From assembly GCF_004138295.1 (NCBI RefSeq), contig NZ_SCFM01000014.1, positions 1-64,000 on the forward strand: DNA of 64,000 nucleotides, written 5' to 3'. The stretch's first letter is position 1; every line of letters begins with the position of its first letter. Below the pieces are notes generated by a model. That model saw only the letters and a program-made list of their open reading frames with translations, did no database searches and was not told where the DNA came from. The stretch comes from Ectobacillus funiculus (GTDB taxonomy: Bacteria > Bacillota > Bacilli > Bacillales > Bacillaceae_G). A program made the translations under genes and the position numbers. Below are positions 895 to 36,833 of this stretch, in pieces.

Positions 895-920
895 AAGCAT
901 GCTTGTCCTGCAGATAAATA

Positions 921-986
921 CACTGTATACCTAAAATTTCCGGCTACGTCGAATGATTGTTTTCTGGAAATTTTAGGTATACAGTG
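921..986 (-). repeat. dispersed repeat, copy 1 (5' half only, perfect palindrome)
   Basis: Minus-strand copy of the 5' hairpin half of the dispersed repeat. The two 21-base arms (921-941 and 966-986) are perfect reverse complements around a 24-base loop. In other copies the arms pair only partly. The loop keeps the family signature CATTCGACGTA when read on the minus strand. The terminator half is absent. Read leftward, it begins two bases after the T-tract of the hairpin at 989-1030. Confidence 0.85.
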
Positions 987-10125: not shown

Positions 10126-10259
10126 TAAAGAAAACTCGCCGATTGGCGAGCCCTGCCCTTGGGCGAAGACAGAGGCGTAGTTGCCCTTATACTGTATTCC
10201 TAAAATTCCCCACTACGTCGAATGAACTTTCAGCTGGGAATTTATACTTTCTTACAGTG
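10126..10259 (-). repeat. dispersed repeat, copy 5 (tandem with copy 6)
   Basis: Full 134-bp minus-strand copy of the GT/AC subtype (CACTGTAAGAAAGTATAAAT at its 5' end) with an intact CTCGCC-AATC-GGCGAG terminator ending in TTTTCTTTA. Read leftward it starts directly after copy 6. Confidence 0.95.
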
Positions 10260-10393
10260 TAAAGAAAACTCGCCGATTGGCGAGCCCTATCCTTGGGCGA
10301 AGACAGAAGCATAGTTGCCCTTATACTTTGTTCCTAAAATTTCTCACTACATTGAATTGTCTTCCTACTAGAAATTTATACTTTCTTAAAGTG
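10260..10393 (-). repeat. dispersed repeat, copy 6 (tandem with copy 5)
   Basis: Full 134-bp minus-strand copy of the TT/AA subtype (CACTTTAAGAAAGTATAAAT at its 5' end). Read leftward it begins directly after the T-tract of the deoD terminator. It differs from copy 5 at many positions, so the pair did not arise by simple recent duplication. Confidence 0.95.
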
Positions 10394-10395
10394 TA

Positions 10396-10437
10396 AAAAA
10401 ACGGAGCTTGTCGTTGCAACGACAAGCTCCGTTTTTT
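10396..10437. terminator. terminator downstream of deoD
   Basis: A perfect palindrome of two 21-base arms (core ACGGAGCTTGTCGTTG) flanked by A6 and T6, 24 bases past the deoD stop. It is functional in either direction. Repeat copy 6 starts behind its leftward T-tract. Confidence 0.9.
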
Positions 10438-27384: not shown

Positions 27385-27518
27385 CACTTTAAGAAAGTAT
27401 AAATTTCTAGCAGGAAGCCCATTCGACGTAGTGAGAAATTTTAGGAACAAAGTATAAGTGCAACTACGCCTCTGTCTTCGCCCAAGGGCAGGGCTTGCCA
27501 ATCGGCGAGTTTTCTTTA
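27385..27518 (+). repeat. dispersed repeat, copy 13
   Basis: Full 134-bp copy of the TT/AA, CT/AG subtype, terminal hairpin TTGCC-AATC-GGCGAG (first pair G-T type) with TTTTCTTTA. It starts 17 bases after the M23 gene stop. No clear host terminator hairpin precedes it, although GTTTGTTTA is T-rich. Confidence 0.93.
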
Positions 27519-34100: not shown

Positions 34101-34706
34101 ATGAGATTGGAACGTTTGAACTACAATAAAATCAAGATTTTCCTTACGTTTGACGATTTGTTGGAACGTGGGCTCACGAAAGAAGATTTATGGCAAAATG
34201 CGCCGAAAGTACAGCAGCTGTTTCGCGATATGATGCATGAGGCAAATAAAGAGCTTGGATTTGAGGCAGACGGACCAATTGCTGTAGAAGTATTCTCACT
34301 TCAGGCGCAAGGTATGGTTGTCATCGTGACAAAGGAGCATCAAGAGATAGGGCTGGATGAAGACTTTAGCGATGACTTTATTGAAATGCAGGTAACTCTT
34401 GATGAGAGCGAGGATATTTTATATGAGTTTGCTTCATTCGAGGACATTATTTCCTTGGCAGAGCGTTTATATCCTCTGGGGATTGAAAATGGGAAATTGT
34501 ATTCCTTTCAAAATCATTTCTACTTATTGCTGGAAGAATCAGCTACATCGCTCTCTCATGAAAATTTAATCGCTATCTTGGCGGAATTCGGAAATTCTGC
34601 AACGATTACAATCTATAGGTTAATGGAATATGGGAAGGAACTGATGGCAGAGCGTGCATTAGCCCAGTTGTATCACTATTTTGTAGCGAAATCAAACCTC
34701 AACTAA
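34101..34706 (+). CDS. mecB: adaptor protein MecA paralogue (YpbH/MecB)
   Basis: A 201-residue MecA-family adaptor that delivers substrates to the ClpC unfoldase. The N-terminal substrate-binding part starts MRLERLNYNKIKIFLTFDDL; a linker of acidic residues follows (about 85-115), then the ClpC-binding C-terminal domain (about 120-201) with FEDIISLAERL. Genomic position after ypbG matches YpbH rather than MecA itself. GGAGGG precedes the ATG. Ended by a strong terminator that is followed by the five-unit repeat array. Confidence 0.92.
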   Translation: MRLERLNYNKIKIFLTFDDLLERGLTKEDLWQNAPKVQQLFRDMMHEANKELGFEADGPIAVEVFSLQAQGMVVIVTKEHQEIGLDEDFSDDFIEMQVTLDESEDILYEFASFEDIISLAERLYPLGIENGKLYSFQNHFYLLLEESATSLSHENLIAILAEFGNSATITIYRLMEYGKELMAERALAQLYHYFVAKSNLN

Positions 34707-34726
34707 GGTATAGTTGGGGTTTTTTG
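34695..34726 (+). terminator. mecB terminator
   Basis: AACCTCAACTA pairs with TAGTTGGGGTT (one G-T) around AGGTA, then T6-7. The tandem repeat array starts at 34727, one G after the T-tract. Confidence 0.92.
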
Positions 34727-35393
34727 CACTGTAGGAGTATAAATTTCCAGCGAGAGGTCATTCGACGTAGTCGGAAATTTTAGGGATACAGTATAAGTAG
34801 GGCTACGCCTCTGTTCTCGCCTAGGGGCAGCGCTTGCCAATCGGCGAGTTTTCTTTACACTTTAGGAAAGTATAAATTTCTAGCTAGAAGCAAGTTCGAC
34901 GTAGTAAGAAATTTTAGGAACAAAGTGTAGGTGCAACTATGCCTCTGTCTTCGCCCAAGAGCAGGGCTTGCCAATCGGCGAGTTTTCTTTACACTTTAGG
35001 AAAGTATAAATTTCTAGCTAGAAGCAAGTTCGACGTAGTAAGAAATTTTAGGAACAAAGTGTAGGTGCAACTATGCCTCTGTCTTCGCCCAAGAGCAGGG
35101 CTTGCCAATCGGCGAGTTTTCTTTACACTTTAGGAAAGTATAAATTTCTAGCTAGAAGCAAGTTCGACGTAGTAAGAAATTTTAGGAACAAAGTGTAGGT
35201 GCAACTATGCCTCTGTCTTCGCCCAAGAGCAGGGCTTGCCAATCGGCGAGTTTTCTTTACACTTTAGGAAAGTATAAATTTCTAGCTAGAAGCAAGTTCG
35301 ACGTAGTAAGAAATTTTAGGAACAAAGTGTAAGTGCAACTACGCCTCTGTCTTCACCCAAGAGCAGGGCTCGCCAATCGGCGAGTTTTCTTTA
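34727..35393 (+). repeat. tandem array of five dispersed-repeat units (copies 14-18)
   Basis: Units: 34727-34857 (131 bp, GT/AC arms), 34858-34991, 34992-35125, 35126-35259 (three identical 134-bp units, TT/AA arms) and 35260-35393 (134 bp). The last differs from the identical three at four positions, all in its 3' half. Every unit ends in CGCC-AATC-GGCGAGTTTTCTTTA, so the array is five terminators in series. No spacers intervene. It occupies nearly all of the 850 bases between mecB and gudB. Confidence 0.97.
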
Positions 35394-35507: not shown

Positions 35508-35555
35508 AAGCAATAAAGGCTTACTCAAGAAATGTATACAGGGGGTTTACTGATT

Positions 35556-36833
35556 ATGGTGGCCGAAAAGGGAGATCATTCACAACAGAAAGCTGAACAA
35601 TTAGATGTATTGAGGTCTACACAAATTGTTATCCATCAGGCGTTAGACAAGCTAGGCTATTCGCAAGAAGTATATGAACTGCTAAAAGAACCTATCCGCA
35701 TGATGACGGTAAAGATCCCAATTCGTATGGATGATGGCACTGTGAAGGTATTTACAGGTTATCGCGCACAGCATAATGATGCAGTGGGACCAACAAAGGG
35801 GGGCATTCGCTTTCACCCGAATGTAACAGAAAAGGAAGTAAAAGCTTTGTCAATTTGGATGAGCTTAAAGTGCGGTATTGTGGATCTGCCTTATGGTGGC
35901 GGAAAGGGTGGTATTGTTTGTGATCCGCGTGACATGTCGTTCCGCGAGTTAGAACGTTTAAGCCGCGGATATGTAAGAGCAATTAGTCAAATTGTAGGAC
36001 CAACAAAAGATATTCCGGCACCTGATGTATTCACAAACTCGCAAATTATGGCGTGGATGATGGATGAATACAGCCGGATTGACGAGTTTAATTCACCTGG
36101 CTTCATTACGGGAAAGCCTCTTGTGCTCGGAGGATCGCATGGACGTGAAACCGCTACCGCAAAGGGCGTGACGATTTGTATTCGAGAAGCTGCTAGGCGA
36201 AAAGGAATTAACATTGAGGGTGCCCGTGTTGTTGTACAAGGATTCGGAAATGCGGGCAGCTATCTTGCAAAATTCATGTATGATGCTGGAGCAAAGGTAA
36301 TAGGGATTTCTGATGCGTATGGGGCGCTGCATGACCCGAACGGACTTGATATCGATTATTTGCTTGACCGTCGTGATAGCTTTGGAACGGTAACGAAGCT
36401 GTTTACAAACACAATTACAAATAAAGAGCTGCTTGAGCTTGACTGTGATATTCTCGTACCGGCAGCAATCGAAAATCAAATTACGGAAGACAATGCGCCT
36501 CATATTAAAGCAAAAATCATTGTGGAGGCAGCTAATGGTCCGACTACCTTGCAAGCGACAAGTATTTTAACAGAGCGCGGTATCTTACTCGTTCCTGACG
36601 TATTAGCCAGTGCGGGCGGCGTGACGGTATCGTATTTTGAATGGGTGCAAAATAATCAGGGTTACTATTGGACGGAAGAGGAAGTAGAAGAAAGATTGGA
36701 AAAGGTAATGGTAAAGTCATTTAGCTCTGTATATGAAATGTCCCAAGTTCGCAAGGTGAACATGCGTCTTGCTGCTTATATGGTTGGTGTTCGCAAGATG
36801 GCAGAAGCGAGCCGATTCAGAGGCTGGGTATAA
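35556..36833 (+). CDS. gudB: NAD-specific glutamate dehydrogenase GudB
   Basis: A 425-residue glutamate dehydrogenase (glutamate to 2-oxoglutarate and ammonium). Visible motifs: [14 protein letters not shown], the catalytic-lysine region [35 protein letters not shown] and the Rossmann [12 protein letters not shown]. The coding sequence reads EVKALSIW without the extra VKA direct repeat that inactivates gudB in B. subtilis 168, so the enzyme should be active. ATG 35556 is chosen over 35532 because CAGGGGG precedes it and it matches homologues. Single gene with its own promoter and terminator. Confidence 0.96.

Follow-up and report, generated by a model that had tools for sequence, protein, structure and literature searches.

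The five tandem units between mecB and gudB are copies of a dispersed repeat, and the explanation that we regard as probable is a structured mobile repeat that inserts behind intrinsic terminators and rebuilds its target, arrays being seeded by insertion and enlarged by recombination. In detail, the non-coding structured repeat measures about 134 bp and is presumably mobilised by an enzyme whose gene lies elsewhere. It would insert directly after the T-tract of an intrinsic terminator, mostly behind ...TTTA or ...TTTG and without target duplication. Its own 3' end is an intrinsic terminator with the tail TTTTCTTTA, and each insertion would leave a new acceptable site there. A second, unrelated copy could then land behind the terminator of the first and give a head-to-tail dimer with the younger unit on the 3' side. 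In a further step the tandem copies would recombine (by unequal crossing-over, gene conversion or slippage) and units would be duplicated, which would leave identical units in runs and, in part of the loci, middle units that are chimeric. At the locus described here, the mecB terminator would have been the target of unit 1, and the end of unit 1 that of the founder of units 2–5, this founder being finally amplified to four units.

The array between mecB and gudB

The window, i.e. the whole 64,000-nt stretch of DNA that was analysed, belongs to a genome of 5.45 Mb in 146 contigs (G000) and holds 21 family matches according to nhmmer. Its features are as follows, with genes called as plain ORFs.

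34101–34706, + strand: mecB (MecA-family adaptor), host gene upstream of the array (Pfam PF05389, E 3.4e-41)
34697–34726, + strand: intrinsic terminator of mecB with T-tract TTTTTTG (from the sequence; flank score -12.7 kcal/mol); the element begins at the following base
34727–34857, + strand: array unit 1, 131 bp, probably the older copy, other subtype, outside the clade of units 2–5
34858–34991, + strand: array unit 2, 134 bp, identical to units 3 and 4
34992–35125, + strand: array unit 3, 134 bp, identical to units 2 and 4
35126–35259, + strand: array unit 4, 134 bp, identical to units 2 and 3
35260–35393, + strand: array unit 5, 134 bp, differing from units 2–4 at 35332, 35342, 35355 and 35371
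35532–36833, + strand: gudB (glutamate dehydrogenase), host gene downstream of the array (Pfam PF00208, PF02812)
10126–10393, - strand: second array of the window, a dimer of two subtypes (5' unit 10260–10393, 3' unit 10126–10259)
27385–27518, + strand: single family copy (nhmmer)
Starts at 1816, 7292, 7995, 11826, 14840, 16000, 18633, 46722 and 61004, + strand: further copies (nhmmer)
918–973 (- strand), 18851, 23206 and 50844: shorter or fragmentary matches (nhmmer)

The five units follow each other head-to-tail with zero spacer, and all four junctions consist of GAGTTTTCTTTA directly followed by CACTTTAG. Tandem Repeats Finder gave the array a score of 1120 and also reported the dimer, at 10126–10402; because of this score and the multi-unit loci of the same family found elsewhere, a chance origin of the array is excluded. 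Units 2–4 are identical, although their number may be off in an assembly of 146 contigs, and unit 5 departs from them within its 3' half only, at unit positions 73, 83, 96 and 112. The identity of unit 1 with unit 2 is 0.81, which corresponds to the 35th percentile among unlinked full-length copies; as this is no higher than for unlinked copies, unit 1 is a separate family member from units 2–5. The two 134-bp units of the dimer are 0.86 identical (60th percentile of unlinked copies). The original prediction, made from the sequence of the window, had described five spacer-free units of 131, 134, 134, 134 and 134 bp, and its coordinates, lengths and counts were right, as were the identity of units 2–4 and the four differences of unit 5. 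It had also taken unit 1 for the other subtype and a separate insertion, in agreement with its identity of 0.81 and its place outside the clade of the remaining units, and had recognised the dimer (its copies 5–6) as a two-unit array of different subtypes.

By reading the sequence, the terminator hairpin is kept in all five array units; a simple pattern scan flagged that of unit 1 only. As a separate observation, the unit junctions carry a weak promoter-like match (TTGCCA, 16 bases, TACACT; 9/12), at 34834–34861 and at the three later junctions of the array, formed by the same bases that form the terminator. It is reminiscent of the junction promoters of insertion sequences.

A structure model consisting of a closing helix P1, a hairpin P2, a pseudoknot and the terminator hairpin was proposed from the sequences and compared over 55 aligned copies. 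In unit 2 its elements lie as follows.

34874–34914, + strand: 5' hairpin P2, arms 34874–34881 and 34907–34914, with covarying pairs and 96.4% of cells paired in the 55 copies
34900–34941, + strand: proposed pseudoknot of CGTAGT (34900–34905) with ACTATG (34936–34941), 90.6% of cells paired, mainly wobble changes
34967–34991, + strand: terminator hairpin (34967–34982) with the tail TTTTCTTTA (34983–34991), the presumed regenerated target

The proposed structure is paired in 92.1% of cells, and pairing falls to 30–44% if the partners are slid by 1–3 columns. Both sides have changed in 78 cells compared to 30.4 (sd 6.4) in shuffles, none of 500 shuffles reaching 78, although the kinship of the copies inflates such covariation scores; counted by pairs, such double-sided changes are unremarkable (9 vs 6.8, reached by 60 of 500 shuffles). 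Covariation is strongest in P1 (UA 26, GC 22) and P2, and by eye the pseudoknot is absent from the Neobacillus form. RNAalifold predicted two hairpins, the folding of a single unit was not better than that of shuffles (z -0.41), and Rfam gave zero matches at gathering score in the window and only sub-threshold ones on the array, with E up to 5. It is thus the comparative test that argues for the predicted structure. The selected form may be RNA or single-stranded DNA.

Insertion sites and distribution of the family

For the flank test we scored the 70 bases upstream of those 136 first units whose 5' end is intact for a hairpin plus T-tract at or below -9 kcal/mol. An upstream intrinsic terminator was found at 74 of the 136 loci, compared to 5/136, 1/133, 2/134, 6/131, 4/136 and 6/136 in the controls. 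In other genera, where 86 right ends were found and 50 copies were scorable, it was present in 38 of these 50 vs 2 of 93 controls, the 50 being not all independent as several come from one species and at least two pairs (L034/L042 and L064/L080) seem to represent one site shared by two species. Elements therefore sit directly behind intrinsic terminators, as had been read from the window alone. At 46 of the 136 loci no upstream terminator was scored even at -3 kcal/mol; many of these still show a T-rich site, and here plain T-tract targeting cannot be separated from recognition of a terminator.

The insertion motif, derived from 77 loci with both ends intact, has T at position -3 (96%), T (84%) or C (14%) at -2, and A (65%), G (25%) or T (10%) at -1. 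Suffix–prefix matches for k = 1–8 were the same as in shuffles at these 77 loci, so there is no sign of a target-site duplication in this range. The element ends in a terminator plus TTTA, its 3' end being GTTTTCTTTA in 65 of the 77 loci. A gene lies upstream on the same strand at 107 of 155 loci, and predicted ORFs contain only 2 of 157 classified loci. Those copies of G000 that lack an upstream terminator likewise follow the orientation of the local genes (26 vs 8), which may reflect single-stranded targeting of the lagging strand or simply decayed terminators.

A filled and an empty version of the same site could be compared in Gottfriedia. One of these genomes (G015) carries six copies in 400 kb, two of which are comparable with G011. 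At the mecB–gudB site G015 has one copy behind the mecB terminator, and G007, G011 and G018 have none. The insertion joins bluntly, right behind the terminator and without duplication, and the flank at the empty site ends in TTT, not in TTTA or TTTG. At the second site (L144) the left join lies directly behind a terminator that is also present in G011, and a decayed second copy on the right leaves only the left side readable. From the remaining four copies one is common to G011, one has no counterpart in the compared stretches and two are too different, the G011 counterpart of one of the latter also being a terminator.

A first look at the whole genome of the window gave 934 candidates, 40 of which were scored and yielded 86 matches. 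In contig C82 of this genome, 20 stretches totalling 400 kb contain 62 matches (40 full-length); this sample omits two stretches of C82 already taken for their arrays. By extrapolation the genome would hold several hundred copies. Among the relatives, with one genome per species in the comparison set, 21 of 59 genomes have matches, including a high-copy genome with 104 first-look candidates (G039); the three other genomes of the same genus gave no family match. A pattern scan of named genomes found at least 74 stretches, in Neobacillus, Cytobacillus, Scopulibacillus, Evansella, Gottfriedia, Metabacillus and others. Copies from Neobacillus and Scopulibacillus have the 3' module and a short 5' motif in common with the others and different hairpin arms, and because of these other arms the repeat is better described as a superfamily. 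Using the array as blastn query against 72,556 plasmids we obtained a match in one, which is Gottfriedia-like, and in zero plasmids of the B. cereus group, and the search for carriage by phages or viruses gave no match. The repeat is not described in the literature covered by a literal sequence and keyword search of titles and abstract openings, which included few subscription papers.

Two side observations concern individual copies. A plasmid labelled Arthrobacter citreus NEB 577 (CP053689.1, L009) holds a copy of this otherwise Bacillaceae element, which suggests that the record may be misnamed. Furthermore, non-coding inserts are found inside copies of Cytobacillus citreus (L058:3546-3737, L099:6633-6942, L053:6222-6474 and L102:2058-2282) and also in L093, L103, L105, L071 and L084. 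They carry ACAGGATGT/ACAGGACGT palindromes in both orientations and look like a second small repeat nested within the first.

Seeding and growth of arrays

We counted 24 multi-unit loci of the family in 20 stretches and 5 in another 20; these frequencies are rough, since the former 20 had been selected for arrays or strong matches and the C82 sample lacks two array stretches. Including the window, 55 of 57 unit junctions read ...TTTCTTTA directly followed by (C/T)A(C/T)T; of the other two, one has ...TTTTCTTGACACT instead and the second is a join at which the right end is missing. The 3' end of the element is thus the same kind of site as that used for insertion, as expected from the earlier claim that an inserted copy offers a fresh target. 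In 31 multi-unit loci the last unit is nearer to the family consensus than the first in 26, farther in 3 and tied in 2 (p = 1.5e-5); the ratio is 24 vs 2 for loci with at least 60 comparable columns and 7 of 7 for the window plus the C82 stretches. Since the last unit is nearer to the consensus in most arrays, new copies enter on the 3' side, behind the resident terminator. Against this polarity stands L144, where by eye the intact copy is upstream and the decayed one downstream. Target regeneration is supported as the way in which arrays start. A preference of the element for its own terminators is not established: with the same scoring for both kinds of site in 464 kb, an independent copy was carried by 4/40 own ends vs 29/412 host terminators at the -9 cut-off (p = 0.52), by 5/47 vs 32/595 at -7 (p = 0.18) and by 5/50 vs 35/877 at -5 (p = 0.058, a trend). 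This comparison is rough because of the sampling, the window having been selected on account of its array and C82 being short of two array stretches.

Growth beyond the dimer looks different. Unlinked full-length copies have a mean identity of 0.829 and a maximum of 0.985, with 0.05% of pairs at 0.97 or above, whereas the inner units of long arrays are identical or nearly so and the period is particular to each array (132, 133 or 134). Longer arrays in G000 are C114:132362-133571 with 9 units and C24:213107-213913, C82:282561-283351 and C78:56001-56792 with 6 units each. In 3 of 8 arrays with at least three units the middle unit is chimeric, with the 5' part of the last unit and the 3' part of the first, as unequal crossing-over in a mixed dimer would produce. 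The middle unit of L179 has 12 sites as in the last unit and then 6 as in the first, that of L108 has runs of 8, 5 and then 1 sites (one AGGG block making up 4 of the 5), and that of L109 has 1 site and then 4, these 4 being one AGGG block. The array of the window is not a clean chimera, as 23 of 25 sites are as in the last unit and only 96 and 112 match unit 1. No clear switch is seen in L107 (mostly as the first unit) and L110 (all as the last), and L111 and L119 have partial first units with sites too few or one-sided. Among 26 first pairs there are 8 with an unusually high similarity of the 3' halves (percentile at least 0.94) but not of the 5' halves (below 0.9), the reverse being found in none, with limits that were set after seeing the table. 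Identical units and chimeras point to local recombination.

The unit phylogeny proposed along with the original prediction was also reconstructed, and in it units 2–5 and a copy on contig C72 (L126:10063-10195) form a clade of five with a support of 0.93 and unit 1 outside. The C72 copy is the nearest unlinked copy found to unit 5 (0.985 overall, identical over 128 bases) and has the base of unit 5 at position 96, which some other copies also carry. The lineage of unit 5 and the C72 copy thus appear to be linked by recent movement or conversion, which may have gone in either direction. The first few bases of the C72 copy differ from unit 5, and it is apparently inserted inside a palindrome. 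In the likeliest history, whose order is our inference, unit 1 settled behind mecB, the founder of units 2–5 followed behind unit 1, a duplication occurred and an inner unit was amplified to three.

Two simpler histories use only one of these processes each. If all five units were independent insertions, each behind the previous one, the exact head-to-tail phase, the TTTCTTTA junctions of the CAC type (55/57) and the many mixed dimers would be explained; this is very improbable given that units 2–4 are 100% identical compared to a mean of 0.83 and a maximum of 0.985 for unlinked copies, that the inner units of long arrays are near-identical and share the period of their own array, and that chimeric middle units occur in 3 of 8 arrays. 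Array growth by repeated self-insertion is accordingly not supported. A single insertion followed by unequal crossing-over or slippage, with unit 1 merely diverged, would account for the homogeneous inner units and for the chimeras at other loci and is just as hard to believe, as unit 1 is no more identical to unit 2 than random unlinked copies are and lies outside the clade of units 2–5 and the C72 copy. The original idea of self-made targets giving arrays therefore holds for their start, where the 3' unit is the younger in 26 vs 3 loci, and is not supported for their growth; instead of crossing-over from a single ancestral insertion only, the outcome that it had named against itself, both processes act. 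Another possibility is that the identical run was delivered behind unit 1 in one event by rolling-circle or multimer insertion, from which exactly identical head-to-tail units would result. The hairpin near the 3' end, the lack of duplication and the T-rich target are reminiscent of HUH elements; still, with zero Y2 and only two partial Y1 matches in G000, and with chimeras at other loci that need homologous recombination, we find this improbable. Seeding by insertion and enlargement by recombination is the reading that we keep.

Candidate mobilising enzymes and related elements

Five enzyme families were compared between 22 element-bearing and 38 other genomes of one set of 60, with uncorrected p-values and collapsing to genera as the only phylogenetic control. 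No association was found for Y1_Tnp (17/22 vs 32/38, p = 0.51), GIIM (12/22 vs 12/38, p = 0.10) and Y2 (2/22 vs 3/38, p = 1.0). IS110 was rejected, since its p = 0.03 (17/22 vs 18/38) becomes 0.31 at genus level and G000 has no match. Y1 is represented in G000 by two partial matches only, covering 77 (with four stops) and 39 of 121 positions, and gave no match in the element-bearing G009, G010, G012, G014 and G015. RVT_1 was found in 18/22 vs 15/38 genomes (p = 0.003). Taken together, none of Y1, Y2, IS110, the group II maturase and RVT_1 appears to be consistently present with the element. We also looked for a larger autonomous element. Combining left ends with distant right ends gave unconvincing pairs and, for Cytobacillus and Neobacillus, internal inserts of non-coding DNA. 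In the intervals separating left from right ends that had no partner, no obvious transposase was seen over about 2.16 Mb of sequence, in which the smaller part of the genome is represented and whose open stretches were judged without a profile search.

Movement in trans by a group II intron or another reverse transcriptase, with a target choice like that of class C introns, is unlikely in our view but has points in its favour. According to the excerpts available of two papers, class C (IIC) group II introns insert at intrinsic terminators using the DNA hairpin plus a short sequence (PMC4424553, PMC3898094), and both they and the repeat insert behind intrinsic terminators. RVT_1 co-occurs with the element at genus level (10/11 vs 14/34, p = 0.005, the lowest of the five families and uncorrected), and G000 has two group II intron loci. 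On the other hand, 4 of the 22 element-bearing genomes have no RVT_1 match, and the high-copy G039 has no GIIM match and two RVT_1 loci without group II intron RNA, because of which RVT_1 was set aside as an unproven helper. Target-primed reverse transcription was rejected too, as it predicts 5' truncation and the reverse was seen: among 221 copies 37 are truncated at the 3' end only, 22 at the 5' end only and 7 at both, so no 5' excess exists. Unlike class C introns, the window has no group II intron (domain V) match in Rfam at gathering score and the 134-bp unit is too small for a reverse transcriptase. The consensus start of group II introns is GUGYG, and the unit starts with CAC instead.

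The structured, terminator-seeking repeat that we propose has likenesses to further known systems. IS200/IS605-type elements have no target duplication, a one-sided short target and hairpins near both ends, and the repeat likewise lacks a duplication and inserts 3' of a short TTTA or TTTG at most of the 77 loci; however, Y1 is only partial in G000 and gave no match in the five element-bearing relatives. Integron cassette arrays consist of head-to-tail units from repeated insertion at a regenerated site, but the units described here carry no gene. The 134-bp unit is short, non-coding, high-copy and dispersed through intergenic DNA and is MITE-like in a broad sense on these criteria, although the target-site duplication of classical MITEs is absent (k = 1–8, 77 loci). 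In these properties it resembles bcr1–bcr3 of the B. cereus group (group A), which are short, non-coding, interspersed, MITE-like and high-copy mobile repeats of Bacillaceae and for which a TTTAT motif has been reported in connection with mobility; the excerpts available of these reports do not mention terminator targeting or a terminal terminator for bcr1 (PMC6542083, PMC3446304). As a tentative suggestion, the repeat could stand for a so far undescribed class of mobile elements that home to terminators. The mobile form would be a structured molecule of about 134 nt, either RNA or single-stranded DNA, and by rebuilding its target with each insertion it would seed arrays throughout Bacillaceae.

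For the mobilising enzyme, G000 vs G001–G003 and Gottfriedia with vs without the filled site are available as groups for a genome comparison. If a small repeat both seeks out terminators and carries one at its end, its spread to so many copies without gene disruption would be explained: it would arrive where transcription is already over and stop it once more. Target regeneration would also explain the head-to-tail arrays in this family, and the arrays would then be unstable tandem repeats that may be used as strain markers.
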